A DNA stretch of 32,617 nt from Bacteroidota bacterium (lineage in GTDB: Bacteria > Bacteroidota > Ignavibacteria > Ignavibacteriales > Ignavibacteriaceae), in contig JAKAGZ010000031.1 in the NCBI GenBank assembly GCA_021815365.1, positions 1 through 32,617 on the forward strand, given 5' to 3'. Shown here in pieces: positions 11,750 through 27,904 of this stretch. The position numbers and the translations under genes were made by a program. Every line of letters starts with the position of its first letter. Position 1 is the stretch's first letter. The notes under the pieces are model-generated. The model ran no database searches and was not told the origin of the DNA. It saw only the letters and a program-made list of their open reading frames with translations.

Positions 11750-11781
11750 TTACTGCGCTCCCGATTTGAATTTCAGAATAA

Positions 11782-13106: not shown

Positions 13107-14470
13107 ACATAGTTTGGTTTAAAATCGTCAAATACTTTAACTACCTTTGGCTTGGTATTAAAATCGCCGATCTTTCTGAAAACAGGTTCCACAGGTTCTC
13201 CGTGCAGATATTTTTTTATATTTTTTTCTTCGACAGCTTTCTTAACAATCGGCAAAATCTCTTCATAGCATTTTAACAGGTAATATATATCGCTGTCCGT
13301 GTGAGAAAAACACATATTATGAAACCCTGCCCAGAGTACACCGCGCTTAATTAATTCCTGTTGAACTAAAGATTTTATCTCCAGTGGGTTGCCGGCTGAT
13401 TCGTCAAAGGTAACGACTGTTCTGCAATTAAAGCCCTTACATGTTGTATAGCTCATTCCCAGGTTGTTAGCAATACGATTGTAACCTATTTTTATTGTTG
13501 CGCCCTGTTCTGCTAAATATTCCGGTACTCTTTTTTCTTTCAGGATTCTTATCGTGGTTTTTGCCGCGGCTAAAGACAATGCTTCACCACCAAAAGTTGT
13601 AAAAAAGAAAGCTTCATTATCAAGCAGCCGCATTATTTCTTTTCTTCCAGTCAGGATTGAAAGAGGCATTCCGTTTGCAACAGCTTTTGAAAAGCAGGCA
13701 AGATCGGTTTTTATATTAAAGTATTCCTGCGCTCCGCCAACAGCTATTCTGAATCCTGTCCACATTTCATCGAAGATAAGAATAATTCCGTAGTGATTGC
13801 ATATTTCACGGAGTTCGTGCAAAAAATTGTTTTTTGGTTCATCGAATACGAATGGCTCGAGGATGACACAGGCTGTATCTGCATCTATGGAATCTATTAC
13901 AGATTGAATGTCGTTGTAGTTAAAAGTATATATAAGATTTTTGGTGAGTTCAGGTATGCCTTTGTTTCTTGAGGTTGATGCTATATACCAATCGTGCCAG
14001 CCATGATAACCACAACAAAGTATTTTATTCTTACCTGTATATGCACGCGCTAACCTGACAGCCGCAGAAGTAACGTCTGCCCCGGTTTTACTAAATCTTA
14101 CTGATTCTGCATTTGGGATAGTGCTTCTTATAATTTCTGCTACTTCAACTTCAAGAGGATGCATCAATGAGAAAGTAATTCCGTCATCTAATTGTTTTTT
14201 GATTGCATCATCTACTTCCGGATAAGTATAACCCAGAGAGAGAGGTCCGATTCCCATGTTAAAATCTATATATTCATTATCGTCAACATCCCAAACATGC
14301 GAGCCTTTACCTCTCCTGAGATATTTAGGTGCTATCCCTTTGACATGTTGTGTCGGGCCCTTTGCGAGAGTTTGAGTATAAGACGGGATTAACCCTGAAG
14401 CTCTTGCATATAAATATTCTGAATTTGTTATTTCGGGATAATCGTTATTGAAACAAACTTTGTTTGGCAT
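13103..14470 (-). CDS. class III PLP aminotransferase, glutamate-1-semialdehyde aminomutase-like
   Basis: The 455-residue protein has the fold-type I class III pattern: VWDVDDNEYIDFNMGIGPLSLG, a phosphate-binding SKTGADVTSAAVRLAR, CCGYHGWHDWY stacking on PLP, the acidic pair in LIFDEMWTGFR (about 234) and the Schiff-base Lys262 in CFSKAVANGMP. It most resembles GSA 2,1-aminomutase, but it is embedded in a sugar operon and has an extended, charged C-terminus. Housekeeping heme synthesis is therefore unlikely to be its role. Such homologues in glycan clusters act as sugar aminotransferases or aminomutases. A GAGG-TAGG tract just upstream of the ATG at 14470 supports the start; the gap to the transketolase half is 18 nt. 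Intramolecular versus intermolecular amino transfer cannot be decided from sequence. Confidence 0.88.
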   Translation of the reverse strand: MPNKVCFNNDYPEITNSEYLYARASGLIPSYTQTLAKGPTQHVKGIAPKYLRRGKGSHVWDVDDNEYIDFNMGIGPLSLGYTYPEVDDAIKKQLDDGITFSLMHPLEVEVAEIIRSTIPNAESVRFSKTGADVTSAAVRLARAYTGKNKILCCGYHGWHDWYIASTSRNKGIPELTKNLIYTFNYNDIQSVIDSIDADTACVILEPFVFDEPKNNFLHELREICNHYGIILIFDEMWTGFRIAVGGAQEYFNIKTDLACFSKAVANGMPLSILTGRKEIMRLLDNEAFFFTTFGGEALSLAAAKTTIRILKEKRVPEYLAEQGATIKIGYNRIANNLGMSYTTCKGFNCRTVVTFDESAGNPLEIKSLVQQELIKRGVLWAGFHNMCFSHTDSDIYYLLKCYEEILPIVKKAVEEKNIKKYLHGEPVEPVFRKIGDFNTKPKVVKVFDDFKPNYV

Positions 14471-14488
14471 AACCTACCTCATCAATTT

Positions 14489-15418
14489 TTAAAAAAATAC
14501 ACTGCTATGAACCTGTTTATTAAATTCAGCTAAAATTATTTTTGCAATATTTTCGCCATCAAACCCTTCATAAGAAATAGCATCGTTCAGCAGTGAAGGT
14601 TTGAACCATTTATTTTTAAGGCTGATCGGGAATACATTTGCCATTACACGGTTTTTAACGAGTATCTCGCTTACAATCGAAAATAATCCTCCTGTCAAAA
14701 AATGATCTTCAAGTGTAATAACCAAAGGGGATGAAGTGCAGGTTTTAAGGATAAGTTCCTCATCAATTGGTTTGAGCGTTCTTAAATTAATGACCCCGGT
14801 CAGGCGTCTTTTTGAATTTAAAATTTCTGAGGCTTCCATTGCTTGCCGCAGAAGTGTACCGAATGTTATTATGTTTATCTCGTAGCCAACTGAGATTATC
14901 TCTGCTTTACCGATATGAAAGTCTTTTTCATGATTTACAGGTGGTAAAAGATTATTATATCTTATGTACCAGGGGTTACGATCAAGCAATACTTGTTTCA
15001 GTCCTATCAGCATATCCTCAATATCGGACGGGCAAAAAATGTTCATTCCCGGGATTGTTCTCATTAAAGAAATATCTTCGAGTGCCTGATGAGTAGGCCC
15101 GTTCGCTTCCGAGAGAAATCCTGCTACTGCTCCGACAAGCTTTACCGGATAGCCGGGGATACCAATATCTGTTCGTATAAATTCAAAGGCGCGCATAGTT
15201 AAAAACGCAGAAAGTGCATGGCATACAGGTATCCTGCCTCTTTTTGCCAGACCTGCAGCCATGCCAACCATAGTTTGTTCGCTTATTCCAACGTCAATGA
15301 ATTTATCTTTGATCTCTTCAGGCAAGTTTCGAATAGCAGCACGGTTTTCAGCAGTCAGCACAATAAATCTTTCGTCAGTATTAACTAAATTCCGTAATAT
15401 ATTTTCGTAGGTCATCAT
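14489..15418 (-). CDS. transketolase C-terminal half (pyrimidine-binding subunit)
   Basis: This 309-residue chain matches the pyrimidine-binding and C-terminal domains of transketolase/DXS-like enzymes. It contains FIDVGISEQTMVGMAAGLA with the catalytic Glu47 that activates thiamine diphosphate, the GPTHQALEDISLMRTIPG loop and the SPLVITLEDHFLTGG segment of the third domain. Split two-subunit transketolases are common in bacteria and archaea, but such pairs inside biosynthetic operons often serve specialised two-carbon transfers. The ATG at 15418 overlaps the preceding half's stop (ATGATG, two consecutive Met), so the subunits are made together. Sugar donor and acceptor are not deducible. Confidence 0.93.
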   Translation of the reverse strand: MMTYENILRNLVNTDERFIVLTAENRAAIRNLPEEIKDKFIDVGISEQTMVGMAAGLAKRGRIPVCHALSAFLTMRAFEFIRTDIGIPGYPVKLVGAVAGFLSEANGPTHQALEDISLMRTIPGMNIFCPSDIEDMLIGLKQVLLDRNPWYIRYNNLLPPVNHEKDFHIGKAEIISVGYEINIITFGTLLRQAMEASEILNSKRRLTGVINLRTLKPIDEELILKTCTSSPLVITLEDHFLTGGLFSIVSEILVKNRVMANVFPISLKNKWFKPSLLNDAISYEGFDGENIAKIILAEFNKQVHSSVFF

Positions 15419-16269
15419 CTTACAAATAATGTTTCTGATTTAAGTTGTGAAATTTCTTGTGAGTGAAGCTCTGATAAGAGCATTTTAATTTCTTCATGCG
15501 TAAAGTTGCAAAACCATCTGTCTGCCTGTTGTTCGATGCTTGGCAGACCTTTTCCCCTGATAGTATCAGCAGAGATGACGCATGGTCTTCCGTCGTTCAA
15601 TGGTAATTTTTTAAATGTTTCGTCCAGGTAGTTAAAGTCATGTCCGTCACAGGTAAAATAATTCCAGCCAAAAGCTTCAAATTTTCTTTCGAGCGGTTCA
15701 AGCGGGATTAACTCTTCCGTTCTGACATTAGCCTGAAACTGGTTTCTGTCAATAATAACGATCAGGTTATCCAGCTTAAAAGCCGCTGCTATCAGCGTAG
15801 CTTCCCATACAGAACCTTCATTCAGTTCTCCATCTCCTAAAACAACAACTACTCTATTATTTCCTTTTTTCATCTTTATGTCTTTAGCAACGCCAATAGC
15901 AACAGACAGCAAGTGCCCGAGGGACCCGGAGTGAAATTCAACGCCTGGTATATGAACATTTGGATGCCAGTAAATAAAATCATTTACCGACAAATGGTTT
16001 TTCAGTCTTTCTTTCTGAATAAAACCTAATTCTGCAAGAGTACCATAAAGAGCAGGAACATCATGCCCTTTGGATAAGAAAAAATAATCACGGCTGGGGT
16101 CGTCCAGAAGGTGTTTATTAATATTTAAATAATTATGATAAAGGTAAACCAAAATATCCGTGCAGGATAACGAAGCACCCAAAAAACATCCGCCGTTTGT
16201 TGACATCCTTATTATATGTTCGCGGACTTTAAGAGAAATTTGTTTTAACTCATCAACAGATTTATTCAT
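15415..16269 (-). CDS. transketolase N-terminal half (thiamine pyrophosphate-binding subunit)
   Basis: The protein carries the diphosphate-binding domain of transketolase: FFLSKGHDVPALY (phosphate/substrate His), GSLGHLLSVAIG, and the thiamine-diphosphate/Mg motif GDGELNEGSVWEA ending in IIDRNQFQ. The DTIRGKGLPSIE stretch is also conserved. Length (284 residues) is right for the first half of a split enzyme. I chose the ATG at 16269, two nt after the cytidylyltransferase stop. An in-frame TTG at 16275 would give a 4-nt overlap and two more residues. It pairs with the next gene to form the complete enzyme and is placed between sugar activation and amination genes. Confidence 0.93.
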   Translation of the reverse strand: MNKSVDELKQISLKVREHIIRMSTNGGCFLGASLSCTDILVYLYHNYLNINKHLLDDPSRDYFFLSKGHDVPALYGTLAELGFIQKERLKNHLSVNDFIYWHPNVHIPGVEFHSGSLGHLLSVAIGVAKDIKMKKGNNRVVVVLGDGELNEGSVWEATLIAAAFKLDNLIVIIDRNQFQANVRTEELIPLEPLERKFEAFGWNYFTCDGHDFNYLDETFKKLPLNDGRPCVISADTIRGKGLPSIEQQADRWFCNFTHEEIKMLLSELHSQEISQLKSETLFVR

Positions 16270-16271
16270 TA

Positions 16272-17093
16272 TCAAACTACTCTTGTTTGTGCATTCGTAA
16301 TTGTTTTTAATTCAGTTAAATGGTGCCTGTACCAGTTTATCCCTGCATGCATGGCGTTAATTTCCTGCAAGTAAGGCTTCTCGGATAAAAGCATAAGAAT
16401 ATCATACATACTGAAATTATTTTTCATATTGTAAAGTTCATCGTAAACTTTTTTTATGAATACATAATCTTCTTCATAATCTATTGTCCACCTGTGGGTT
16501 GTTGAATAGTCTAGCCCGGTTTCCCAAGTCACATTCCCGATTCTGAATTTTTCAGGATTTTCCCAGATATAAGGGGTAGTATGTTCACGTTCAAAATTTC
16601 TGGCAGCATATCTCCATGCAGATTTTAAGCTTTCAATACTTATAACTTCAACATCGTTTCCATCGGGGTAAGTAGCCGGGTGAAGATTACTTATAAAATC
16701 AAACTTGTCGCTGTTGTCTAAATAAAATTTTATAGTTTTTGTAATTACTGAGGGGTCTATTAAGGGACAGTCAGATGGAATTTTAACTACAACATCGGCA
16801 TCGTACTTCAGCCCGATCTTATAATGCCTGTCCAGCAGGTCGGTGGAATGCCCCCTGTAAATTTCAATATTTTCATTTTTACAGAGGCTGTAAATGCAAT
16901 CATCTTTTTCTTCTTTAGTTGTAGCCACTACAACGGTGCCGCAAAGAGGTGATAATTTTACTCTTTCAACCATTCTTAGAATAAGAGGCTTTCCGGCAAG
17001 GCACATCATTACTTTGTTTGGTAATCTGCTTGAGCCCATTCGTGCCTGGATAACGGTTACTATATTTATCACTGATTTAGTTTTGTTATTCAT
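16272..17093 (-). CDS. cytidylyltransferase, SpsF/CMP-sugar synthetase-like
   Basis: A 273-residue nucleotidyltransferase of the SpsF/KdsB/NeuA superfamily. The CTP-binding signature is VIQARMGSSRLPNK (14-27), followed by VVATTKEEKDD, IYRGHSTDLLDRHY and the metal-binding VVKIPSDCPLIDP. In nonulosonic-acid and Kdo pathways such enzymes form the CMP-sugar after the phosphatase step; SpsF itself is tied to spore-coat polysaccharide. Substrate is probably the ulosonic acid made by the downstream NeuB-type synthase. It overlaps the glycosyltransferase stop as ATGA. Several Cys residues (56, 69, 74, 112) are not part of known family motifs. Confidence 0.88.
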   Translation of the reverse strand: MNNKTKSVINIVTVIQARMGSSRLPNKVMMCLAGKPLILRMVERVKLSPLCGTVVVATTKEEKDDCIYSLCKNENIEIYRGHSTDLLDRHYKIGLKYDADVVVKIPSDCPLIDPSVITKTIKFYLDNSDKFDFISNLHPATYPDGNDVEVISIESLKSAWRYAARNFEREHTTPYIWENPEKFRIGNVTWETGLDYSTTHRWTIDYEEDYVFIKKVYDELYNMKNNFSMYDILMLLSEKPYLQEINAMHAGINWYRHHLTELKTITNAQTRVV

Positions 17094-18142
17094 ACAAGTA
17101 CACCAAACGAGGCTTCATGGTTATTTGTCATCAGTTCTTTTTCAAAAAATTTATCTTTATATAGTTCTTCACTCAGATTAAAATTATTTTTGAGTAATTT
17201 CTTACCAACCATAGCAATATTTTTTGCAGACTGACCGCCATTTTGTATTGGCAGTAAACGTTTTAATTGATTGATATCGAACAATGAATAAACTTCTTTG
17301 TTAAGCGCTAACCCGATAAATACAACACTGGAATATGTCGTTATCAATGTCTCGCAATTTGCGATCATGTGATTAGTGTTGCCATCTTTTAAAACCAGTG
17401 CACCGGGTGCTGTTTTATTTATTTCTCTCTCTGCTCTTTCATGATTTTCATTTGGGTGAAGCTTAAATATCAGTTGTCTTCCGTTTGCGATCAGAAGACA
17501 ATTCCTGATAAATTCCTTCCTCTTTTCGAATTTCAGAGTTTCACGGGAGTCTGAGGTTGCTGCTAACACAAAATTTTTATACGGGAAATCATTCTTCAGA
17601 AATTCTTTGCAGTTATCAAAATTTGGAATTCCTGTAATTTCTATTTTTTCAGGCTTTGCACCTTTTCTTATAAATAGTTCTTTATATCCTTGAGAAGCCA
17701 CGCAAAATTTTGTATAAGCATTAGAAATTCCTGTTGTAGAAGTTCCTGCAATCCACGCCGGAAGGTTTAATTTTTTAACCAGGTAAAAAAGAATATTTTC
17801 ATGGTCAGTCATTCCTTCCTGTACCAGGACTATTTTTTTGTCTTTAATATTTTGTGGAATTAAAAGGTCGCTGCACGTAAAGACGAGATCATAATTATTG
17901 ATTTCACCATAAAAATCTATTTTTAGGTTATTTGAGGTAAGATATTCAATAGTCTTTAACCTGAATTGCCCGCCGAGAATTGTGTTATCAAGCAGCCCTT
18001 TTTCTGCAAACAGCCTTATTAGTCCATCTGAGTAATAAGGTGTGAAGTAACAATTATCTTCAAAAAAATATTGGGAGATTTTATGCATCATCGTTGTTTG
18101 GTTCATTGAACCACAGATGAAAAGAATGTTGTGCTTTCTCAT
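17090..18142 (-). CDS. GT-B type glycosyltransferase, CDP-glycerol/capsule transferase-like
   Basis: First gene of the operon, 350 residues. It shows an N-terminal Rossmann strand (NILFICGSMNQTTMMHK), VLVQEGMTDHEN (108-115 region), the GAKPEKIEITGIPNFDN segment typical of CDP-glycerol- and polysialic-acid-type GT-B enzymes, and FKLHPNENHERAE (His229-Pro230), the HP motif also found in KpsS/KpsC-type Kdo and sialyl transferases that use CMP-sugars. The segment ETLITTYSSVVFIGLAL fits the donor-binding part of the C-terminal domain. It has no clear membrane segment. In this context it probably transfers the CMP-activated product of the operon; acceptor unknown. The exact GT family is uncertain. 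Confidence 0.75.
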   Translation of the reverse strand: MRKHNILFICGSMNQTTMMHKISQYFFEDNCYFTPYYSDGLIRLFAEKGLLDNTILGGQFRLKTIEYLTSNNLKIDFYGEINNYDLVFTCSDLLIPQNIKDKKIVLVQEGMTDHENILFYLVKKLNLPAWIAGTSTTGISNAYTKFCVASQGYKELFIRKGAKPEKIEITGIPNFDNCKEFLKNDFPYKNFVLAATSDSRETLKFEKRKEFIRNCLLIANGRQLIFKLHPNENHERAEREINKTAPGALVLKDGNTNHMIANCETLITTYSSVVFIGLALNKEVYSLFDINQLKRLLPIQNGGQSAKNIAMVGKKLLKNNFNLSEELYKDKFFEKELMTNNHEASFGVLV

Positions 18143-18428
18143 TGTAAAAAAATATTTAATGTGGCGGAAAAATATTTTTTCAATGTTAAGTGATTATTAA
18201 CTGAATATTATTGAACTATTAATTAATTATAAGACCTGCATCCTGCGCTGAATTTTTTATGCTATTGTCTTAAACGATCAAAAAATGATGACTTTTTATA
18301 ACTTAACAATTTCATAATACCGGCTTAATACTTACTTAATATTGCCGGCTTAAGTTCGCATCCATAAAACGAATGAAACTGTAGTTAATATTCGTTGATA
18401 ATTTCTACATTGATAAATTTCAATTCAG
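18143..18428. other. 286-bp divergent intergenic region
   Basis: This AT-rich stretch separates the minus-strand glycan operon from the plus-strand receptor operon and must hold promoters for both. I found no convincing Bacteroidota promoter match, no open frame with a start, no RNA gene and no strong terminator hairpin. It contains a perfect 12-bp palindrome AAAAATATTTTT at 18169-18180 near the glycan operon start and the direct repeat listed separately. Confidence 0.6.
18320..18353. repeat. direct repeat CCGGCTTAA, 25-bp spacing, candidate operator
   Basis: CCGGCTTAA occurs at 18320-18328 and again at 18345-18353, a start-to-start distance of 25 bp, inside an otherwise very AT-rich divergent promoter region. 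Both copies lie on the same face to within a few degrees of 2.4 helical turns only approximately, so cooperative binding is not implied. Copies sit about 180 bp from the glycan operon start and 75-110 bp from the receptor operon start. Confidence 0.3.
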
Positions 18429-19148
18429 ATGAACTTAATCAGAAGAAAAGCTTTTTTTATCTCGGTCATATTTATAGTCTTTATGCACATGAGTCATGCA
18501 TCAAAAGAAATTTCTCCCCGTGATATTTCTGTGGTTCATCATAAGTTGTTTGATCCTCTGAATGTGCATCTAAAACTGCAGGGTATTGAATTAAAAGTTG
18601 AATTTGTCAATATAAATGAAGGTGCATTGTATTTATATAAAAAATTGTACGTGTTAAATGGTTTAGGAAAAATTATAAAGGTTAACAGGAAACAGTCTGA
18701 GAACAATTTTACCCAAGCTGTCTTTAACGAAGAGGATTTTATTCTGCAGTATGATGATTCAAGGAATAAAAAAAATACAGTTGTCAAATGTATAAAATCA
18801 CAGCACAGCAATGGTTCAGGCAAGCTAAACGAGTATAAGGGAGAACATAACCTTTTTGCATTTTCGAGGTCGTTTGAAGACTGGAGATTGAGTTATCAGA
18901 ATTTTGTTTCAAATGAACCCGCGGAGACTGAAAGTATATATTTTTCCCCTCAGCAAATACAAGAATCCCCGCTCAACAAACAACAAACAAACAACATTTC
19001 CCAATTAGTATCGTCAAATAAATTACTCCCAATGGCACTGACAGTTCCATTGCTTCATTACTTGACTCTAAGGGACAAATCATTTTTAAAACCAAAAACA
19101 AAGATTGAGAAGAGTATTAAAAACGAGATAAACAGGAAAAACAAATGA
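18429..19148 (+). CDS. unknown exported protein, first gene of TonB-receptor operon
   Basis: I do not recognise this 239-residue protein. It begins with a signal-peptide-like stretch (MNLIRRKAFFISVIFIVFMHMSHA, possible cleavage after SHA, no lipobox Cys). It then has a mixed beta-rich middle with short amphipathic strands (KLQGIELKVEFVNIN, EEDFILQYDD) and a Gln/Asn/Ser-rich stretch (about 180-200). Near the C-terminus is a hydrophobic segment (LLPMALTVPLLHYLTL) followed by a very basic tail (KTKIEKSIKNEINRKNK). The tail after a hydrophobic segment might be a second membrane anchor. Its stop overlaps the receptor start as ATGA, so it is co-translated and may assist receptor function, but there is no motif to prove this. 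Confidence 0.75.
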   Translation: MNLIRRKAFFISVIFIVFMHMSHASKEISPRDISVVHHKLFDPLNVHLKLQGIELKVEFVNINEGALYLYKKLYVLNGLGKIIKVNRKQSENNFTQAVFNEEDFILQYDDSRNKKNTVVKCIKSQHSNGSGKLNEYKGEHNLFAFSRSFEDWRLSYQNFVSNEPAETESIYFSPQQIQESPLNKQQTNNISQLVSSNKLLPMALTVPLLHYLTLRDKSFLKPKTKIEKSIKNEINRKNK

Positions 19149-21916
19149 AAATAAATTTTTTAACAATGGTAATATTGGTTATTGTTTTTACCATGTTTTG
19201 CCCGGCAGTTCAGGTATTTGCACAAAGTACCGGGACAATCAGCGGGAAGGTTGTTGATAAAAGCAACAACGATGCGCTGATAGGAGCTAATGTTATTGTA
19301 GAAGGAACTACCCTGGGTGCTGCTACCGACATTGATGGTTTTTACACTATAAAAAATCTGAAACCCGGCAGTTATAAGTTGAGATTTTCATTCATATCAT
19401 ATCAAAGCCTGACTGTTGAAAATGTCATTGTAATGGCAAATGAAAATACTGCTGTTAACGTCAGCCTATCTACCGATGTGACAACGTTAAAAGAAGTTAT
19501 AATAACTGCTGAAGCGTTAAAGACAACAGAAGCTTCTGTATTGAAAATCCAAAAAACTGCTGAAAATATTGTGGACGGAATCAGCGCAGAGTTGATCAGT
19601 AAAAATAACAGCTCAAATGGTGTTGATATATTGAAAAAAATGACGGGGGTCACAATTTCAGAAGGCAAGTATGCTTTCATACGCGGGATCGGCGACAGGT
19701 ATAACAGCACTCTGTTAAACGGCTCAACATTACCGAGTACAGATCCTGAAAAGAAAAGTTTTTCTTATGATATTTTCCCTGCGAGCCTTATTGAAAATGT
19801 AATTACAGCTAAGACTTTTACACCGGATGAGCCTGGCGATTTTTCCGGAGGCTTGGTACAAATTAAAACGATTGAATTTCCCACAGATTTTATTTTTAAC
19901 ATAAGCACTTCAGGTGCTTTTAATAGCATGACAACGGGGGAGAAATTCTTAACTTATTCCGGGGGCAGTAAAGATTTTCTTGGTTACGATGATGGTACAA
20001 GGGCAATGCCTTCAATGATTACTGCGATGAAAGTTGTAAGAGGGAACTATCCTGATTCTGCCTTAAATGTTTTTACTGGTTTATTTAAAAATAATTGGAG
20101 TCCGTATTCAGTCAATGCCCCGATGGATGGGTCATTTAAAATTGATATAGGGGATAAGTATGAGCTTGGAAGCAGCAGTGTATTTGGTTTTGTCGGTTCA
20201 TTAACATATTCGAACTCAGGTAAGAGTGAAAGGCTTCAGAAAAGTTTTTATGACTTTTCAGGTCCAAGATATTTATATGATGGAACCTCGAACACGAGGT
20301 CTGTCAACCTTGGAGCTTTGTTAAATCTGAGCTTTAAATTTGCTAATAAAAATAAAATCAGCTTCAAAAATATTTATAACCAGGATGCCGATGATATAAC
20401 AACTTTTTATAAAGGAGATTACAGATATTCTGACCAGTACAGGGAAATTACCTCGTTCGATTATATCTCCCGTTCGCTTCTTTCCGACCAGCTAATCGGT
20501 GAACATGAGATCGGAATGTTCAATGGCTTGATCTTTAAGTGGAACCTCAGCTATGCAGAATCAAAAAGAAATGAGCCTGATGCGCGGAGATATGTTTATG
20601 CAAGAAGCATTTCTGACCCTTCAGAGTCTCTTAGATTTCAACTGGACCCTTCAGGTAATACCAGGTATTATGGTGATCTCAAAGATCAAAATTATAATGT
20701 CAATCTGGATTTTATTTTTAAGTTGTTTAACGACCCCGAACTTCCTAAAATAAAAGTCGGGCTTGCATACAACAAAAAAGACAGAAATTTTTCAGCAAGA
20801 TCCTTTGGCTTTAGAAATATACCCGGTGGGAATTATCTTCATGAAGATTCTGTACTCCGGTCTCCTGTATACCAGATTTTTCAGCCAGAAAATATCGGCA
20901 ACAGATTTATCCAGGTTCAGGAGGTTACAAAATTATCAGATAGCTATCTGTCAAACCAGAAGATCAGAGCCGGTTATTTTATTTTCGACGCCACAGTCTT
21001 TAACAGGTTTAGAATTGTTGCAGGCGCACGTTTTGAAAATTCCACACAGGAATTAAACACAATTGATTTAAGAGATCAGCCGGTTAATGTTAAAAATACT
21101 TACAAAGATATTTTACCAAGCATTAATCTTACCTATTTACTTAATGACCGGATAAATATCAGAACAGCTTTCAGTATTACACTTGCCAGACCGGAGTTTA
21201 GAGAAATGGCTCCGTTTAGTTATTTTGATTTTATTGCTAACGAATTAGTGCAGGGGAACCCGCTGCTACAAAGAGCGCTGATAAATAATTACGACGTTCG
21301 TTTCGAAATATATCCCGGTCCCGGTGAACTAGCAGCACTTAGCTTTTTCTACAAAAGATTTAAAAGCCCCATTGAAGAAACAGTACAGGCTTCTGCAAAT
21401 GAGCCTATCAGGTCTTTTGTCAATGCTGATATGGCGACTAACTATGGGCTTGAAATAGAGCTTAGAAAGTCATTGACATTTATTTCACCAATCTTTGAAC
21501 ACCTTTCGTTTATAGGAAACGCTGCACTGATTAATTCAAGAGTTCAAATAAGCAATAACGTTTACCAACAGAGCGAAAGGGCTTTGCAGGGGCAAGCTCC
21601 ATATATTTTTAATCTCGGTTTGTATTATGATAATTATCACTTAGGTCTCAATACCTCTTTAACGTACAATAAGGTCGGGCAAAGAATTTCAAAAGTAGGT
21701 ACGAAAGACCTTGGCAACACTCTAGAAAAGCCTGTTGACCTCATTGACTTCACTATCTCTAAAACGGCTTTCGAGTTTCTAACATTCAGGTTTTCAGTTA
21801 AGGATATATTAAATCAGGATAGAATTCAGATACAGCAAGCCCCGTATGGTGATAAAGTAACCAGCAGGGAAATTAGAGGAAGAAATATTTCGTTCGGAGT
21901 TACTTATAAACTATAA
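19145..21916 (+). CDS. TonB-dependent outer-membrane receptor with N-terminal carboxypeptidase-regulatory-like domain
   Basis: The 923-residue protein has a signal peptide ending near VFAQ (residue 27). A carboxypeptidase-D-regulatory-like beta-sandwich follows (about 30-115: GTISGKVVDKSNNDALIGANV, TDIDGFYTIKNLKPGSYKLRF), then a plug domain (about 125-270: VDILKKMTGVTISEGKYAFIRGIGDRYNSTLLNG split over several strands, ASLIENVITAKTFTPDEPGDFSGGLVQI). A long beta-barrel with ILP-SINLTYLLNDRINIRTAFSIT-type strands ends in ISFGVTYKL. Such receptors import or help export large substrates using TonB energy. It is not a clear SusC (no SusD follows). It overlaps the unknown exported protein and is followed after 39 nt by a T9SS cargo, so the three genes form one unit. 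Substrate unknown. Confidence 0.9.
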   Translation: MKINFLTMVILVIVFTMFCPAVQVFAQSTGTISGKVVDKSNNDALIGANVIVEGTTLGAATDIDGFYTIKNLKPGSYKLRFSFISYQSLTVENVIVMANENTAVNVSLSTDVTTLKEVIITAEALKTTEASVLKIQKTAENIVDGISAELISKNNSSNGVDILKKMTGVTISEGKYAFIRGIGDRYNSTLLNGSTLPSTDPEKKSFSYDIFPASLIENVITAKTFTPDEPGDFSGGLVQIKTIEFPTDFIFNISTSGAFNSMTTGEKFLTYSGGSKDFLGYDDGTRAMPSMITAMKVVRGNYPDSALNVFTGLFKNNWSPYSVNAPMDGSFKIDIGDKYELGSSSVFGFVGSLTYSNSGKSERLQKSFYDFSGPRYLYDGTSNTRSVNLGALLNLSFKFANKNKISFKNIYNQDADDITTFYKGDYRYSDQYREITSFDYISRSLLSDQLIGEHEIGMFNGLIFKWNLSYAESKRNEPDARRYVYARSISDPSESLRFQLDPSGNTRYYGDLKDQNYNVNLDFIFKLFNDPELPKIKVGLAYNKKDRNFSARSFGFRNIPGGNYLHEDSVLRSPVYQIFQPENIGNRFIQVQEVTKLSDSYLSNQKIRAGYFIFDATVFNRFRIVAGARFENSTQELNTIDLRDQPVNVKNTYKDILPSINLTYLLNDRINIRTAFSITLARPEFREMAPFSYFDFIANELVQGNPLLQRALINNYDVRFEIYPGPGELAALSFFYKRFKSPIEETVQASANEPIRSFVNADMATNYGLEIELRKSLTFISPIFEHLSFIGNAALINSRVQISNNVYQQSERALQGQAPYIFNLGLYYDNYHLGLNTSLTYNKVGQRISKVGTKDLGNTLEKPVDLIDFTISKTAFEFLTFRFSVKDILNQDRIQIQQAPYGDKVTSREIRGRNISFGVTYKL

Positions 21917-21955
21917 ATTAATTTATTAACCAATTATTAACCAAAAGGAGACGTT

Positions 21956-24823
21956 ATGAAAAAACTTCTATTTCTCGTTCTGATAGTTCTGGGCGGTCTA
22001 TCTGTTTATGCACAAGATTCAACTTTAACAGGTAACATTACTACTAATACAGTATTATCATCAGGTAAAACCTACCTGCTTGATGGGTTTGTTAGAGTAA
22101 AAAGTGGGGCAACATTGACAATACCTGCAGGGACAAAAATCTACGGAAAGAGTTCATCACAAGGAACATTGATCATACAACCGGGAGGAAAGATAGATGC
22201 ACAAGGGACAGTAAGTAATCCAATAGTATTTACAAGTGAATTTGCAAAACCAGGCTCAACACAAGAGCCACAGAGAGGAGACTGGGGAGGGATAATAATA
22301 TTGGGTAAAGCGCCGATAAATGTACCGGGAGGGACAGCCGCCATAGAAGGTCCTGGAGATACTTATGGAGGCACAGACGCACAGGATAACAGTGGAATAA
22401 TGAAGTATGTAAGGATAGAATATCCGGGTATAGCATTTAGTCCTAACAATGAAATTAATGGGTTAACGTTTGGAGGGGTAGGCAGCGGTACAACGATAGA
22501 TTACATACAGGTGAGCTACAGTAATGATGATTCGTTCGAATGGTTTGGTGGTACAGTGAACTGTAAACATTTGATAGCATACAGGGGATGGGATGATGAT
22601 TTTGATACAGATTTTGGATATGAGGGTAAGCTTCAATTTTTAGTAGCGATAAGGGATCCGCAGGTAGCAGACGCACAGTCAGGGTCAAATGGATTTGAAT
22701 CGGATAATGATGGGTCAGGCTCAACGAATGCGCCGAGGACATCACCAATCTGGTGGAACGTTACACTGGTAGGTCCACAGGTAACGACAGATGCAGTATA
22801 TAATACAGATTTTAAAAGAGGAATGCATTTAAGAAGAAGTTCGCAAAATAAAATCCACAATGCTTTAATAATGGGATGGCCAACCGGAATAGTTATAGAT
22901 GGTGTTAATACTACAACAGATGCACAGAATGGAACGATGTATGTTAAACACAGCATCGTTTCAGGTTCAAGCAAAATTGTTGTTGACTCAGCAAGTTCGA
23001 ACGGTACGTTTAATCCAACAAGTTGGTTCACTAGTAATAGCAACATAACCTTTGCTACAAATGCTGAAGTTTTATTAAGAAATCCTTTTAACTTAGATGA
23101 ACCTAACTTTTTACCTAAGCCGGCGTCTCCGGTTTTCTCGGGAGCCGGAACTCCGCCAAACGATGGATTCTTTGATCAGACTGCTGCGTACATTGGCGCC
23201 TTTGGTTCTACCGACTGGACATCTGGATGGGCAAGATTCAGCGCTTCTTACAAGGGTGAAGTAATTCTATCAGGAAATATTACATCGAACAGAACTTTAT
23301 CTGCAGATTCCACCTACCTGCTTGATGGGTTTGTTAGAGTGAAGAGCGGGGCAACATTGACAATACCTGCAGGGACAAAAATCTACGGAAAGAGTTCATC
23401 ACAAGGAACATTGATCATACAACCGGGAGGAAAGATAGATGCACAAGGGACAGTAAGTAATCCAATAGTATTTACAAGTGAATTTGCAAAACCAGGCTCA
23501 ACACAAGAGCCACAGAGAGGAGACTGGGGAGGGATAATAATATTGGGTAAAGCGCCGATAAATGTACCGGGAGGGACAGCCGCCATAGAAGGTCCTGGAG
23601 ATACTTATGGAGGCACAGACGCACAGGATAACAGTGGAATAATGAAGTATGTAAGGATAGAATATCCGGGTATAGCATTTAGTCCTAACAATGAAATTAA
23701 TGGGTTAACGTTTGGAGGGGTAGGCAGCGGTACAACGATAGATTACATACAGGTGAGCTACAGTAATGATGATTCGTTCGAATGGTTTGGTGGTACAGTG
23801 AACTGTAAACATTTGATAGCATACAGGGGATGGGATGATGATTTTGATACAGATTTTGGATATGAGGGTAAGCTTCAATTTTTAGTAGCGATAAGGGATC
23901 CGCAGGTAGCAGATGCACAGTCAGGGTCAAATGGATTTGAATCGGATAATGATGGATCAGGCTCAACGAATGCGCCGAGGACATCGCCAACCTGGTGGAA
24001 CGTAACGCTGGTAGGTCCTCAGATACATTTAAATTCAATATATAACTCCGATTTTAAAAGAGGAATGCATTTGAGAAGAAGTTCTCAGAATAAAATAAAT
24101 AATACTATAATAGCAGGTTGGCCCATAGGAGTATTGATTGATGGGAAAAATACAACGACCGATGCTGAAAACGGAGGAATGTACCTAAAGAACAGCATAG
24201 TTGCAGGCTCATCAAAGAAAGTAGTCGATTCAACGAGTTCAAACGGTACATTTAATCCTGCAGGTTGGTTCAGTGCCAACAGCAACAGATCATTTACAAA
24301 CACTACTGATCTGTTGTTATATTCAGCATTTGATATTAATAACCCAAACTTCTTGCCAGCTCCAGGATCTCCGGTTTTAACCGGAGCCGGAACTCCGCCA
24401 AACGATGGATTCTTTGATCAGACTGCTGCTTACGTTGGTGCCTTTGGTTCTGCCGACTGGACATTCGGATGGGCAAGATTTAATCCTGATTCTACAACTA
24501 CAGATATAAAAGAGAAAAAACTTATAAACATAACTCCTTACAATTATGAATTAAGTCAAAATTATCCTAATCCTTTTAATCCTTCAACAAAAATAAGATA
24601 TTTATTGCCGGAAAGCGGATTAGTAAAGCTTGTAGTATATAACATACTTGGTCAGCAGATTCAGACGCTGGTCAATGAGAATAAATCAGCCGGAACGTAT
24701 GAAATAACCTGGAATGCCTCAAATCTGCCAAGCGGTATATATATCTATAGACTGTCCGTAGGATCCCTTTCAGGACAGACAGGGTCCTATGTTGTTGCCA
24801 AAAAAATGATTTTGATGAAATAA
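21956..24823 (+). CDS. T9SS-secreted surface protein with two 414-residue tandem repeats and type A sorting domain
   Basis: This 955-residue protein has a signal peptide (cleavage near VYA-QDS, residue 19) and two copies of a repeat, about residues 24-437 and 438-851. Each repeat opens with beta-helix-like text (YLLDGFVRVKSGATLTIPAG, GTLIIQPGGKIDAQGTVSNP) and continues through YVRIEYPGIAFSPNNEING, a Trp/Asp-rich stretch (FEWFGGTVNCKHLIAYRGWDD) and LRRSSQNKI. The C-terminus from about residue 863 is a type A sorting domain (YELSQNYPNPFNPST, then YNILGQQIQTLV and LPSGIYIYRLSVG). This marks it for T9SS export and attachment. AGGAG at 21946-21950 gives a good ribosome-binding site. The first parts of the two repeats are identical at DNA level. 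No enzymatic motif is visible; a binding or structural role beside the receptor is likely but inferred. Confidence 0.88.
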   Translation: MKKLLFLVLIVLGGLSVYAQDSTLTGNITTNTVLSSGKTYLLDGFVRVKSGATLTIPAGTKIYGKSSSQGTLIIQPGGKIDAQGTVSNPIVFTSEFAKPGSTQEPQRGDWGGIIILGKAPINVPGGTAAIEGPGDTYGGTDAQDNSGIMKYVRIEYPGIAFSPNNEINGLTFGGVGSGTTIDYIQVSYSNDDSFEWFGGTVNCKHLIAYRGWDDDFDTDFGYEGKLQFLVAIRDPQVADAQSGSNGFESDNDGSGSTNAPRTSPIWWNVTLVGPQVTTDAVYNTDFKRGMHLRRSSQNKIHNALIMGWPTGIVIDGVNTTTDAQNGTMYVKHSIVSGSSKIVVDSASSNGTFNPTSWFTSNSNITFATNAEVLLRNPFNLDEPNFLPKPASPVFSGAGTPPNDGFFDQTAAYIGAFGSTDWTSGWARFSASYKGEVILSGNITSNRTLSADSTYLLDGFVRVKSGATLTIPAGTKIYGKSSSQGTLIIQPGGKIDAQGTVSNPIVFTSEFAKPGSTQEPQRGDWGGIIILGKAPINVPGGTAAIEGPGDTYGGTDAQDNSGIMKYVRIEYPGIAFSPNNEINGLTFGGVGSGTTIDYIQVSYSNDDSFEWFGGTVNCKHLIAYRGWDDDFDTDFGYEGKLQFLVAIRDPQVADAQSGSNGFESDNDGSGSTNAPRTSPTWWNVTLVGPQIHLNSIYNSDFKRGMHLRRSSQNKINNTIIAGWPIGVLIDGKNTTTDAENGGMYLKNSIVAGSSKKVVDSTSSNGTFNPAGWFSANSNRSFTNTTDLLLYSAFDINNPNFLPAPGSPVLTGAGTPPNDGFFDQTAAYVGAFGSADWTFGWARFNPDSTTTDIKEKKLINITPYNYELSQNYPNPFNPSTKIRYLLPESGLVKLVVYNILGQQIQTLVNENKSAGTYEITWNASNLPSGIYIYRLSVGSLSGQTGSYVVAKKMILMK
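22106..22671 (+). repeat. 566-bp perfectly identical block, copy 1
   Basis: By direct comparison this stretch is base-for-base the same as 23348-23913 (offset 1242 bp, which is 414 codons). It encodes residues 51 to about 238 of the T9SS protein. Immediately upstream, three consecutive codons (Val-Lys-Ser) differ only at third positions. Downstream the copies diverge again by synonymous changes, and later by amino acid changes. Of 19 Ile codons in the block, 16 are ATA. Confidence 0.95.
23348..23913 (+). repeat. 566-bp perfectly identical block, copy 2
   Basis: Second copy of the identical block, encoding residues 465 to about 652 of the same protein. The first mismatch on the right is at 23914 (T, versus C at 22672, both Asp). 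On the left it is at 23347 (C, versus T at 22105, both Ser). Confidence 0.95.
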
Positions 24824-24889: not shown

Positions 24890-25028
24890 ATAAATGGAAA
24901 AATTAACAATTTCATTATACATAGTTCACAATTTCTTAATATCCATTTCTTAGGTTAACTATACAAAAAAAAATTCATTACTAATAAAGTTTAGAATTTT
25001 AAAATGTCAGGAATATCATATAGCCGGG

Positions 25029-26831
25029 ATGAAAGAAATAACTATTAGTGAAATAATCAAATCAAAGCGGCCTGCTTTCCTCCAAAAATTCCCTGCTTCT
25101 TTCAGAAACTTAGTCTTTAATCTTATTGCTGTAATTATTCGTCAGAATGAGATCAACAAATATTTAAGGAAATATAGTGATAAAAGAGGCTTCGAATTTA
25201 TTGACGAACTGTTTGACGATCTTGATTTTTCATTTCAGGTTTCTGATAAAGACAGACAAAAAATTCCTTCTGAAGGGAAACTGTTAATAGTTTCAAATCA
25301 TCCTCTTGGTGGATTAGACGGGCTTGTTCTTCTTAAGCTCGTTAGCGAAGTAAGAAGAGATGTTAAGATTATTGTAAATGATATTTTATTGAACATAAAT
25401 AATCTTAGTGATCTGTTCCTTCCTTATGACATATCAAATAAATCATTTCAAAAGGAAAACCTGAGCCTTATTGAAAGTGCTCTTAAAAGAGAGGAAGCTG
25501 TAATTATTTTTCCTGCAGGGGAAGTCTCCAGGCTGGGAATAAAGGGAATTAAAGACGGGATATGGCATAAAGGTGTTATTTATTTTTCAAGGAAGTTAAA
25601 TGTGCCTGTTCTACCTGTTCTTATTAAAGCAAAGAATTCGCTCATCTTTTACCTGGTTTCGTTAATTAATAAAGAGCTTTCAAAATACCTGCTGCCAAAT
25701 GAACTCTTTAATAAAAGGTTTAAAGTTATTACAATTAAAGTTGGTCATCAGATTCCTGCAAAAGTTTTTAACGGTTACCAGGGAAGGGCCCGCCACATAG
25801 TTAAACTCTTAAAAAAACATACCTATCTTCTTGGGAAAAATTCGAAGGAGCTTTTTATAACAGAGAAAAATATTATACATCCTGTCGACCGTAAATTGCT
25901 GAAAGCGCAGTTGAGAAAAGAAGATTTGCTGTTGACTACAAAAAACGGCAAAAAAATATTTTTAACCGATATTGTTAATTCACCTGACGTTGTCAAAGAA
26001 ATTGCCCGGCTAAGAGAAGTAACCTTTAGAAAAATCGGTGAGGGGACAGGCAGAAAAGCCGATACCGATAAATTTGACCAGAGTTATCAGCACATTGTTT
26101 TGTGGGATGAAAATGATATTGAAATTGTCGGATCCTACAGGATAGGTTTTTGTCGCGACATAATCCTGAAAAAAGGACTGAACGGACTGTATTCATCAAC
26201 TTTGTTCAACTATACAGGCGAGTTTGTTGATCTGTTGGATTACTCGCTTGAGCTGGGTCGAAGTTTTGTTCAGGCAAAATACTGGAATACGAACGCCCTC
26301 GATTATTTATGGCAGGGGTTAGGCAGAATTCTTTTGAACAATCCTGAGATAAGGTATCTCTTCGGTGCTGTGAGCTTGAGCAATACTTACCTTAAAGAAG
26401 CCCGGGAGATGATCGTCTTTTTTTATAAAAAGTGGTTCTCCGGCGGCAGTAATATGGCAGCAGCAAAGAACCGGTTTATAATTTCAGACAGAAGAATTGA
26501 GGAGTTAGAAAATATTTTTTCAGCAGATAATTACGATGCTGAATTTAAGACATTAAAAAATGTGCTCAGGGCTTATGGTTATTCTGTACCGGTTCTTTTC
26601 AGACAGTATACTGAATTGTGTGAATCCGGAGGTGTGGAATTTTTGGATTTCGGAGTTGACACGGATTTTCATAGCTGCCTGGATGCTTTAATACTTGTAG
26701 ATGTGGATAAGATAAAGCATGCGAAAAAAGAAAGATACATTTATAGCAGTAGCCTTAATGATAAAGTGAGTTTTGCTGAAAGAACTGAGTTTATAAATTT
26801 ACAAACACAAGTAGACAATTTATGCGAGTAG
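25029..26831 (+). CDS. bifunctional aminolipid acyltransferase, OlsF/GlsF-like (PlsC domain + OlsB-type N-acyltransferase)
   Basis: The 600-residue protein is a fusion. The N-terminal part (about 75-270) is a lysophospholipid-acyltransferase domain with SNHPLGGLDG (His-Asp pair near residues 91-97), DISNKSF, and the acceptor-binding FPAGEVSRLG (about 161). The C-terminal part (about 300-510) is an OlsB-type N-acyltransferase with EIARLREVTFRKIGEG, YQHIVLWDE, IVGSYRIGF, FVDLLDYSLELGRSFV and LDYLWQGLGRIL. Known fused enzymes of this kind (OlsF of Serratia; related Flavobacterium proteins) N-acylate an amino acid and then O-acylate the hydroxy-acyl chain, making ornithine or glycine lipids without phosphate. 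Whether the amino acid is ornithine or glycine cannot be told. The metallophosphoesterase gene overlaps its end by 10 nt. Confidence 0.85.
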   Translation: MKEITISEIIKSKRPAFLQKFPASFRNLVFNLIAVIIRQNEINKYLRKYSDKRGFEFIDELFDDLDFSFQVSDKDRQKIPSEGKLLIVSNHPLGGLDGLVLLKLVSEVRRDVKIIVNDILLNINNLSDLFLPYDISNKSFQKENLSLIESALKREEAVIIFPAGEVSRLGIKGIKDGIWHKGVIYFSRKLNVPVLPVLIKAKNSLIFYLVSLINKELSKYLLPNELFNKRFKVITIKVGHQIPAKVFNGYQGRARHIVKLLKKHTYLLGKNSKELFITEKNIIHPVDRKLLKAQLRKEDLLLTTKNGKKIFLTDIVNSPDVVKEIARLREVTFRKIGEGTGRKADTDKFDQSYQHIVLWDENDIEIVGSYRIGFCRDIILKKGLNGLYSSTLFNYTGEFVDLLDYSLELGRSFVQAKYWNTNALDYLWQGLGRILLNNPEIRYLFGAVSLSNTYLKEAREMIVFFYKKWFSGGSNMAAAKNRFIISDRRIEELENIFSADNYDAEFKTLKNVLRAYGYSVPVLFRQYTELCESGGVEFLDFGVDTDFHSCLDALILVDVDKIKHAKKERYIYSSSLNDKVSFAERTEFINLQTQVDNLCE

Positions 26832-27739
26832 CACACATTTCAGATATACATCTTAATACTTTTTTTAAAAATTCGAATCTTAAACAAATCAAATTCCTGC
26901 TCAGGTATGCACTTGAACAGAAATTTGATCACCTTGTTATCACCGGTGACCTGGTTGATAATGCTGATCAAAAAGACTTTGAAATACTAAGGAGCCTTTT
27001 CAGAAAATTTAATCTTCTGAATTCCGACAGGCTTTCCCTGGTAATCGGCAATCATGATATTTTTGGCGGTGCTCAAACACCGGAAGAAATTTTTACCTTT
27101 CAAGAGAAATGCAGGAATGTTGATTATGATAGAAAGGTCGAAGAGTTTTCAGAATATTTTTCTGAAACTTTCAAAGGTTGTGTTTATCGGAATAAAGAGA
27201 AAATTTTCCCGTATGCAAAAATTATAGATGATGTTCTTATTGCTGGTGTTAATTCAATAGCAAGATATTCAAAAGTCAAAAATCCCTTTGCTTCAAACGG
27301 TGTAGTTGAACCGGAACAACTGAACGAGGTTAAAAATATATTTAATGACTTTCGAAATTTTTGCAAGTACAAACTTTTACTTATTCATCATCAGTTCAAT
27401 AAAATTAAAATAAGTGAAGGTTCACCTAACAGCTTATGGCAGATCATTGAAAAGCAGACTATGAAGCTTAGAAAGAAGAAGAGGTTATTCAGTTTATTTA
27501 AGCAGCACGGAGTTGATCTTGTTCTTCATGGTCATTTGCACGAACAAAGGGAATACTATAGAAAAGGTATACGTTTTTTGAATGCCGGCGCATCTGTAAA
27601 AAATAATTTATACAGAAAACTATTTATAAATTTCATAGATCTGAAATCTTCGAAAATAAAAGTTAGTGTTCACTCAATCTCTGATTTTTCAAGAGAAAAA
27701 ATAGCAGAGTTTAATGTTCCGAAATTGGAGTTGATATAA
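26822..27739 (+). CDS. calcineurin-like metallophosphoesterase
   Basis: The 305-residue protein has the five metal-binding blocks of the family: SDIHLN (7-12), TGDLVDN (about 41-47), IGNHD (about 75-79), LLIHHQF and HGHLHE (about 236-241). There is no signal peptide or membrane segment, so it is cytoplasmic or peripheral. The ATG lies inside the end of the acyltransferase gene (10-nt overlap), implying coupled translation. Such phosphoesterases near lipid genes include UDP-2,3-diacylglucosamine hydrolase (LpxH) and cyclic-nucleotide phosphodiesterases. LpxH is shorter (about 240) and has a different pattern, so the substrate here is open. Confidence 0.88.
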   Translation: MRVAHISDIHLNTFFKNSNLKQIKFLLRYALEQKFDHLVITGDLVDNADQKDFEILRSLFRKFNLLNSDRLSLVIGNHDIFGGAQTPEEIFTFQEKCRNVDYDRKVEEFSEYFSETFKGCVYRNKEKIFPYAKIIDDVLIAGVNSIARYSKVKNPFASNGVVEPEQLNEVKNIFNDFRNFCKYKLLLIHHQFNKIKISEGSPNSLWQIIEKQTMKLRKKKRLFSLFKQHGVDLVLHGHLHEQREYYRKGIRFLNAGASVKNNLYRKLFINFIDLKSSKIKVSVHSISDFSREKIAEFNVPKLELI

Positions 27740-27766
27740 CTATAAACCAGACCTTGAGGTATTAGT

Positions 27767-27904
27767 ATGAAACAAAAAATGGAAGGTTTTTACGGTGTTG
27801 TTTTTATTAGTGTAATTTTACTTACACAGAGATTTGATGTTCTTCTGTGTATAGTAACTTTGCCGCTTTTAATCTTTTCGCTTCTGCAGTTTACAAAGCA
27901 GTAA
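27767..27904 (+). CDS. 45-residue hydrophobic miniprotein
   Basis: A short open frame begins MKQKMEGFYGVVFISVILL and ends LLQFTKQ. GAGG at 27755-27758, 8 nt before the ATG, is a good ribosome-binding site. Two hydrophobic stretches (about residues 8-20 and 24-42) are separated by TQRFD, suggesting a hairpin in the membrane. It follows the metallophosphoesterase stop by 27 nt. I do not recognise it. A chance open frame is possible because the region is AT-rich, but ribosome-binding site, spacing and composition favour a gene. Confidence 0.55.
   Translation: MKQKMEGFYGVVFISVILLTQRFDVLLCIVTLPLLIFSLLQFTKQ

Follow-up and report, generated by a model that had tools for sequence, protein, structure and literature searches.

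What joins a gene for making a membrane aminolipid to a gene for a phosphoesterase? The question arises from a 32,617-nt contig of a Bacteroidota bacterium of the family Ignavibacteriaceae (JAKAGZ010000031.1; this whole stretch is called the window here), in which olsF, encoding a bifunctional ornithine-lipid synthase, overlaps the gene of a calcineurin-like metallophosphoesterase (MPE). A preliminary description of the pair held that no step for a phosphoesterase is known in such lipid synthesis, and offered regulation, headgroup removal or a new lipid as explanations. These guesses point in the right direction but miss phosphate starvation, and the phosphoesterase PlcP does have a known place in phosphate-starvation lipid remodelling (passages of PMC4796936 and PMC9239053). 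On balance we favor the reading, predicted from sequence, that OlsF and MPE belong with a ulosonic-sugar operon and a TonB-receptor operon to a Pho-regulated island for membrane-lipid remodelling. The span first described (25029-27904) takes in the two long genes, but most of the system lies outside it, including the larger partner, the sugar operon 7-15 kb upstream.

The 600-aa product of the first gene scores 705.4 bits against the curated NCBIfam model for OlsF (NF052615, cut-off 620) and has the fused acyltransferase-GNAT architecture, with PF19576 (88.5 bits) and PF13444 (79.9 bits) both above cut-off. In the relevant passage of an aminolipid review, the N-terminus of OlsF is likewise Pfam 19576 (PMC11631085). 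The glycine-lipid models GlsB (218.8 of 300 bits) and GlsA (177 of 260 bits) stay under their cut-offs while the OlsF model is exceeded, so the protein is an OlsF and not a GlsA/GlsB fusion. The family is firm, and the phosphorus-free aminolipid formed is probably ornithine lipid. The gene calls behind the 10-nt overlap with the 305-aa MPE reading frame hold at 26822-26831.

Evidence for what the island responds to lies in its promoters. TTAACA-like hexamers recur every 11 bp in the upstream regions of three units: OlsF, the sugar operon and the TonB-receptor operon. An 11-bp tandem layout is that of the PhoP/PhoB boxes of Bacillus and cyanobacteria. Scoring of this motif gave six sites in the window (one before OlsF, three before GTc8 at the head of the sugar operon, two before the TonB-receptor operon) versus a mean of 0.45 in Markov shuffles. 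A strict three-unit pattern has six exact matches in the 3.09-Mb genome, four of them between the sugar and TonB operons and two before a pst operon on contig C98; with at most one mismatch there are 15 matches, versus 3 for a backwards control. The boxed pst operon encodes a protein without a Pfam family, PstS-like and PstC-like matches, and a PstB above its curated cut-off. A second above-cut-off PstB (contig C66 of the same genome, G000) lies in an operon whose first gene encodes a phosphonate-binding protein, where only a weaker opposite-strand site is nearby. Tandem 11-bp boxes are common to the island and the pst operon, the sequence pattern of a Pho regulon.

Boxes of this kind recur in many relatives, ahead of MPE and of the sugar operon. 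For these counts the weights were loosened after the first scoring (A allowed at place 1; T given 0.75 at place 5). The p-values, with no correction for multiple testing, derive from first-order Markov shuffles of each promoter. As controls we scored genes inside these operons, the motif at different spacings, and its backwards form. In a first set of loci, boxes at p<=0.01 precede 15 of 42 GTc8 genes (including loci with an LPG_synthase_TM gene in front), 10 of 14 MPE genes and 4 of 7 TonB genes; at internal genes the counts are 0/36 (cytidylyltransferase), 0/26 (hydroxylase) and 1/31 (NeuB). The MPE promoters above 0.01 are those of the window and L061, where MPE stands behind OlsF, and two that come near (L073, 0.025; L085, 0.08). 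The second set holds the best 80 of 564 GTc8 loci from a named genome collection and favors Ignavibacteria. Boxes precede GTc8 in 31 of 73 cases there, divergent MPE in 14 of 16 and co-directional MPE in none of three, and internal genes again score low (cytidylyltransferase 0/75, hydroxylase 0/31, short-chain dehydrogenase 1/54, NeuB 1/57, aminotransferase 2/62). Among spacings of 7 to 17, only 11 stands out, with 23 of 73 promoters at a high score versus at most 4 elsewhere. OlsF has a box of its own, reached by 0 of 300 shuffles, in the window, L061, L063, L069, L163 and L208; none of the other 15 OlsF promoters scored has one at p<=0.01, and most of these lie inside an operon. Phosphate genes are also close in some relatives: a PstS of family TIGR02136 adjoins MPE in L061, and PstC and PstS matches lie 9-11 kb downstream of GTc8 in L165. 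Several sequence tests of one motif thus make it very probable that the island is under phosphate control; the chemistry discussed below rests on homology and neighborhood only.

The linkage of synthase to phosphoesterase, as first proposed, is real. The order OlsF then MPE is seen again in L061 (30-nt gap), L175, L203 and L208, and the wider island is shared elsewhere. The refuting outcome named at the outset, a lack of conserved adjacency, did not occur: adjacency recurs, though it is by no means universal. OlsF scored above cut-off in 10 of 247 genomes of the phylum; six of the ten (G000, G236, G051, G031, G066, G035) carry an MPE relative on the OlsF contig, no more than 10 kb away, two (G047, G240) have one on another contig, and two (G070, G196) gave no match. 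From a reading of neighborhoods, the sugar operon proved the more constant partner. The MPE gene is divergent to GTc8 in G051, G031, G066 and G116, where OlsF closes the operon (cut by the contig end in G116), and in G224, G074, G188 and G019, where no OlsF was seen in the locus; all island genes of G236 run in one direction. Two genomes of another family (G093, G120) have separate genes for a GNAT protein (PF13444) and a PlsC-type acyltransferase (PF01553) divergent to the same sugar operon. This OlsB plus OlsA make-up is a second form of the association between aminolipid genes and sugar operon; the MPE relative of G120 is on a separate contig.

In the second set the GTc8 loci include Ignavibacteria, Melioribacter metagenome-assembled genomes (MAGs), Stygiobacter electus, Kapabacteria, Chloroherpetonaceae and six Nitrospirae-named MAGs. 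A divergent MPE occurs at 16 of the 75 loci with at least 1.5 kb upstream. The 52 loci with at least 9.5 kb downstream contain OlsF (11), an SMR-type transporter (11) or a co-directional MPE (3). Where both flanks are available (51 loci), MPE is found in 15 and OlsF in 11, and all 11 OlsF loci have MPE. Because genes of relatives were called with an open reading frame (ORF) picker and tblastn (E<=1e-5), their starts are placed only approximately, and a gene without a label may still be present; and given shared ancestry and seven contigs present in both sets (L157, L173, L178, L186, L201, L206, L227), the locus counts are not independent events. The S. electus locus (L156) has the sugar operon with a strong box, and neither MPE nor OlsF was labelled in it. 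Taking binning as given, the sugar operon, or its first genes at contig ends, was also seen in the Nitrospirae-named MAGs (L165, L169, L183, L191, L192, L223), with an SMR-type gene behind it in L165, L191 and L223; the GTc8 box is present in five of the six (0/300 shuffles), L165 being without.

Nine genes make up the sugar operon (10053-18142). They encode enzymes for a CMP-activated sugar of the sialic-acid-like (ulosonic) kind, together with a GT-B protein and a hydroxylase resembling OlsE. Models for condensation (PF03102), phosphatase (TIGR01670, KdsC family) and CMP activation (PF02348) all score above cut-off; the enzyme families are firm, and together they define a pathway to a CMP-activated ulosonic acid. 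The curated equivalogs for N-acetylneuraminate synthase (246.2 of 399.65 bits) and pseudaminate synthase (196.2 of 340.25 bits) were not reached. Given the aminotransferase and dehydrogenase, the sugar may bear an amino group. No acetyltransferase was recognized among the ten genes scanned at the operon. The hydroxylase belongs to family PF04116 and falls well under the OlsE score for ornithine-lipid hydroxylases. Directly behind the operon (9606-10049, minus strand) lies an ArsC-like, low-molecular-weight phosphatase fold (TIGR02691, 106.3 of 174.3 bits). The sugar genes keep company with the OlsE-like hydroxylase, with SMR or LPG_synthase_TM proteins and with OlsF and MPE, and they share phosphate control with them; this suggests a lipid acceptor, and we put the chance that the sugar sits on a membrane lipid a little short of even.

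MPE scores 67.1 bits against Pfam Metallophos (cut-off 21.5), and its metal-binding motifs are invariant or nearly so across 15 relatives (D8, H10, D43, N77, H78, H189/H190, H238, H240). The confident AlphaFold model (predicted local distance difference test, pLDDT, 86.3) has a calcineurin-like fold, which with the full motif set places MPE among class III, GpdQ-type enzymes (Z 25.7-26.8). The closest folds are about tied: Lmo2642 (Z 26.8, root-mean-square deviation [rmsd] 3.0, 254 residues aligned), Rv0805 (Z 25.9, rmsd 2.4, 231 aligned) and GpdQ (Z 25.7, rmsd 2.6, 238 aligned, and E 2e-5 by sequence profile), with acid sphingomyelinase-like enzymes next at Z about 20; fold likeness on its own names no substrate. 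Candidates set aside were an antiphage phosphoesterase (68 of 420 bits), SbcD (27.1 of 77.65 bits) and a PlcP by descent, given 17 of 134 bits against the LpxH model and no membership of the LpxH/PlcP branch. The only LpxH-like protein in a Sinorhizobium meliloti record, which we provisionally take to be PlcP, gave a single short N-terminal match (24 of 89 identical; hhalign probability 88). Plasmid relatives of MPE (six records) are 22-23% identical over 62% of the query. One S. meliloti record, CP090106.1 (L231, L233), bears the title plasmid pSymB; judged by its length of 3.72 Mb and by genes like leuA, it would seem to be a chromosome or to have had its label swapped. Nor does MPE appear to replace the HAD phosphatase of the sugar operon: among 53 loci with aminotransferase, dehydrogenase and NeuB matches, MPE occurs in 1 of 16 HAD-less loci (L163) versus 14 of 37 HAD-bearing ones.

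Descent aside, the surroundings of MPE recall those of plcP, which is linked to glycosyltransferase genes and Pho boxes (passages of PMC4796936 and PMC9239053). MPE lies directly behind a GT4 glycosyltransferase in G240, G055, G014 and G120 and divergent to a GT4-containing unit in G243, with a box ahead of the GT4 gene in all five. The two GT4 proteins scored, of G243 and G014, resemble lipid glycosyltransferases; their top curated model is N-acetylglucosaminyl phosphatidylglycerol synthase, at 158.2 and 167.1 of 480 bits, far under cut-off. Genes for PstS, a PstC-like protein, an ABC protein and a PhoU-domain protein come next along in G243, and G240 has PstS and PstC matches. Five genomes also share, near the GT4-MPE genes, a conserved protein some 800 aa long that belongs to no Pfam family (L080, 6839-9373; L072, L077, L078, L082). 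Since GT4 neighbors and Pho boxes resemble the plcP pattern, it is plausible that MPE works like PlcP; that it is a PlcP is not supported. Among MPE relatives of the f9-like set, 2 of 7 have a box at p<=0.01. Distant relatives (about 30% identity) in family f20, which we take to be Chlorobiaceae (green sulfur bacteria), have a different conserved neighborhood in all six loci drawn (L091-L096) and no box in the three scored. Four f20 genomes carry GTc8 and an LPG_synthase_TM gene together, with NeuB elsewhere at 65-68% identity; f20 relatives keep parts of the pathway without the box.

From these parts we propose the following course. When phosphate is scarce, a PhoB/PhoP-type regulator would bind the tandem 11-bp TTAACA-type boxes and turn on the OlsF-MPE, ulosonic-sugar and TonB-receptor units. 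OlsF would form a phosphorus-free aminolipid, probably ornithine lipid, while MPE, as a two-metal phosphodiesterase of Rv0805/GpdQ type, may cleave intracellular phospholipid to phosphate and diacylglycerol. The sugar operon would supply a CMP-activated 2-keto-3-deoxy sugar acid, and GTc8 might move it onto lipid, perhaps the diacylglycerol freed by MPE, giving an acidic or zwitterionic phosphate-free glycolipid. That the island serves lipid remodelling we consider likely; that MPE breaks down phospholipid is an even call. More tentatively, and at less than even odds, Ignavibacteria, Kapabacteria, some other Bacteroidota and some Nitrospirota may make an undescribed glycolipid, built by GTc8 on diacylglycerol from a GpdQ-like phospholipase C, which would replace phospholipids alongside the OlsF aminolipid under phosphate shortage; its headgroup would be a CMP-derived ulosonic (sialic-acid-like) sugar acid, possibly amino-bearing.

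The role of GTc8 allows more than one reading. Its predicted fold is GT-B (pLDDT 90.5), and in structure it aligns best with UDP-GlcNAc 2-epimerases and NeuC (Z 16-17, rmsd about 4), followed by TagF (Z 14.7) and then a polysialyltransferase (Z 13.7). Together with weak Epimerase_2 matches in Pfam, under cut-off, this fits a role as NeuC-type 2-epimerase in making the sugar precursor, with the true transferase encoded elsewhere. Against such an epimerase, the only match in the Protein Data Bank by sequence is a TagF-like polymerase, the operon holds no other transferase candidate, and GTc8 has QEG and HP motifs that are invariant and separated by 120 residues. Bacterial sialyltransferases have D/E-D/E-G and HP motifs, with E153 and H278 spaced by 125 (passages of PMC2169525). 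Compared with families GT38, GT52 and GT80, HP is invariant in GTc8 and QEG stands at the D/E-D/E-G place, its E and G invariant. Proteins with a TagB domain have been put forward as enzymes that transfer such sugars (excerpt of PMC7439481). A CMP-sugar transferase is favored, and we hold the epimerase to be unlikely, at perhaps one chance in a few. The sugar operon could instead decorate a surface glycan, lipopolysaccharide or protein with phosphate-free anionic groups and have only Pho control in common with the lipid genes. NeuB-type sugars are known mostly from surface glycans, and in Bacillus teichuronic acid supplies phosphate-free anionic groups instead of phosphate; the TagF/TagB-like and sialyltransferase-like features of GTc8 and the nearby TonB and type IX secretion system (T9SS) genes would fit as well. 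The operon, however, retains just one transferase-like gene along with the OlsE-like hydroxylase; neither a polymerase nor an exporter was recognized among its genes, and at its end lie genes for aminolipid synthases, in two forms. We regard surface decoration as a serious possibility, though one we would bet against.

For MPE the main competitor is scavenging alone: as a cytoplasmic glycerophosphodiesterase or phosphatase, with the role of UgpQ and the fold of GpdQ, it would recover phosphate from deacylated phospholipid or imported esters, and OlsF would merely be a neighboring Pho-regulon gene. The standing of GpdQ among its closest relatives by fold and profile agrees with this, as do the Pho-type boxes and the PstS, TonB-receptor and pst genes near it in several relatives. 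Yet the neighbors of MPE alternate between the GTc8 operon and GT4 glycosyltransferases, as reported for PlcP, and no genes for glycerophosphodiester uptake were recognized beside it, though no search aimed at them was made; scavenging alone seems rather improbable. Chance adjacency of unrelated genes would suit the facts that the exact OlsF-then-MPE order occurs in only five loci and that most sugar operons lack both genes, but it is very hard to square with an MPE at every OlsF-linked locus among the 51, a gene set kept in differing orders, and shared boxes.

Several observations weigh against a remodelling island as proposed here. MPE is absent from 36 and OlsF from 40 of the 51 sugar-operon loci, so the operon often stands alone. 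The threshold of p<=0.01 was missed by 42 of 73 GTc8 promoters, and the OlsF box of the window was weak by the first score (14.5, reached by single shuffles). The box was read by eye off these promoters before being scored, so the p-values lean towards it and are descriptive only. No match to the PhoB model exceeded cut-off in this genome (best 227.7 of 296.2 bits). The best fold matches of GTc8 are 2-epimerases, MPE has no close tie to the LpxH/PlcP branch, and in the four f20 genomes that keep GTc8 and NeuB no close cytidylyltransferase was found.

How does the island compare with known systems? Like PlcP-Agt of marine bacteria, Methylosinus and Sinorhizobium, it combines a metallophosphoesterase, glycosyltransferase-like genes and Pho boxes, and would yield phosphate-free lipids including ornithine lipid, predicted here from genes (passages of PMC4796936 and PMC9239053). 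It differs in having an MPE of Rv0805/GpdQ type rather than of the LpxH/PlcP branch, a ulosonic-sugar operon with GTc8 as partner (GT4 elsewhere), and OlsF within the island. OlsF itself matches those of Flavobacterium and Serratia in domain order, curated score and Pfam 19576 N-terminus, but in these bacteria is joined to MPE and a sugar operon and is itself Pho-boxed. MPE shares its fold and complete metal site with class III phosphodiesterases of GpdQ/Rv0805 type, whereas identity on structure alignment is 17-24% and its context is one of lipid genes. Sialic and legionaminic acid pathways likewise have NeuB, a KdsC-type phosphatase and a cytidylyltransferase; the present operon departs from them in its split transketolase, glutamate-1-semialdehyde-aminomutase (GSA)-type aminotransferase, FA_hydroxylase, and lack of a recognized N-acetyltransferase or of a full match to the NeuAc and pseudaminic models.

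An aminoglycosphingolipid of Chlorobium is cited in PMC11762602 (Jensen 1991); a neuraminic-type sugar has reportedly been found there. The open-licence papers searched yielded nothing joining Chlorobium or green sulfur bacteria, neuraminic acid and lipid or sphingolipid, nothing tying nonulosonic acid to ornithine lipid, and nothing tying phosphate starvation to a nonulosonic glycolipid; for Ignavibacteria and ornithine lipid, passages of PMC11129491 on that lipid concern other taxa. If correct, our reading would describe a lipid-remodelling route from parts other than PlcP-Agt, none such having been found described in these bacteria in those papers, and would show concretely where a sialic-acid-like membrane lipid might be sought. 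Two further gains would be a Pho-box model that can be used in Ignavibacteria and their relatives, and a phosphate-stress role predicted for a phosphoesterase family left unnamed by Pfam and NCBIfam.

Table 1. Genes and Pho-box-like repeats of the putative island (positions in the window)
Feature	Position	Strand	Basis
olsF, bifunctional ornithine-lipid synthase (O-acyltransferase PF19576 + GNAT PF13444)	25029..26831	+	NF052615 and Pfam
MPE, calcineurin-like metallophosphoesterase, GpdQ/Rv0805-type fold, no signal peptide apparent	26822..27739	+	Pfam, motifs, model, fold matches
GTc8, GT-B-fold protein, candidate CMP-ulosonic-acid transferase	17090..18142	-	motifs, model, fold matches
Cytidylyltransferase, NeuA/KdsB type	16272..17093	-	PF02348 104.6 bits
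Transketolase, N-terminal half	15415..16275	-	PF00456 98.3 bits
Transketolase, C-terminal half	14489..15418	-	PF02779 96.2 bits, PF02780 59 bits
Pyridoxal-phosphate (PLP) aminotransferase, glutamate-1-semialdehyde-aminomutase-like	13103..14470	-	PF00202 161.2 bits; PRK06209 381.3/486 bits
Short-chain dehydrogenase	12297..13106	-	PF13561 164.4 bits
KdsC/YrbI-family HAD phosphatase	11782..12351	-	TIGR01670 141.5 bits, cut-off 106.95
NeuB-family synthase	10841..11749	-	PF03102 249 bits
FA_hydroxylase-family membrane enzyme, OlsE-like	10053..10841	-	PF04116 107.3 bits; OlsE model 112.3/475 bits
Pho-box-like tandem repeat before olsF	24903..24930	+	score 14.5 (first score); 0/300 shuffles (later score)
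Pho-box-like tandem 11-bp repeats before GTc8 (sugar operon)	18173..18222	-	motif scoring
Pho-box-like tandem 11-bp repeats before 239-aa/TonB operon	18303..18341	+	motif scoring
239-aa protein without family, TonB-dependent receptor (19145-21916), T9SS-tailed protein (21956-24823)	18429..24823	+	Pho-box-led operon
45-aa hydrophobic ORF, not conserved, not counted in the system	27767..27904	+	ORF call

The small ORF behind MPE had been taken for a membrane miniprotein belonging to the pair. It does start 27 nt past the MPE stop codon with a GAGG-type site ahead of it, but no relative of it turned up at 32 other loci, and it gave no Pfam or NCBIfam match. In the 350 nt after MPE at those 32 loci (28 with four twice-present contigs counted once), hydrophobic small ORFs were seen in three only (L066, L175, L229), unrelated to it in sequence.

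The role of the TonB-receptor operon would be uptake, and its relatives adjoin MPE or a PstS gene in L061, L066, L068 and L079. The T9SS-tailed protein it encodes contains an internal duplication of 1242 bp (22021-22320 versus 23263-23562, 93%; 23097-23238 versus 24339-24480, 85%), which is probably recent.

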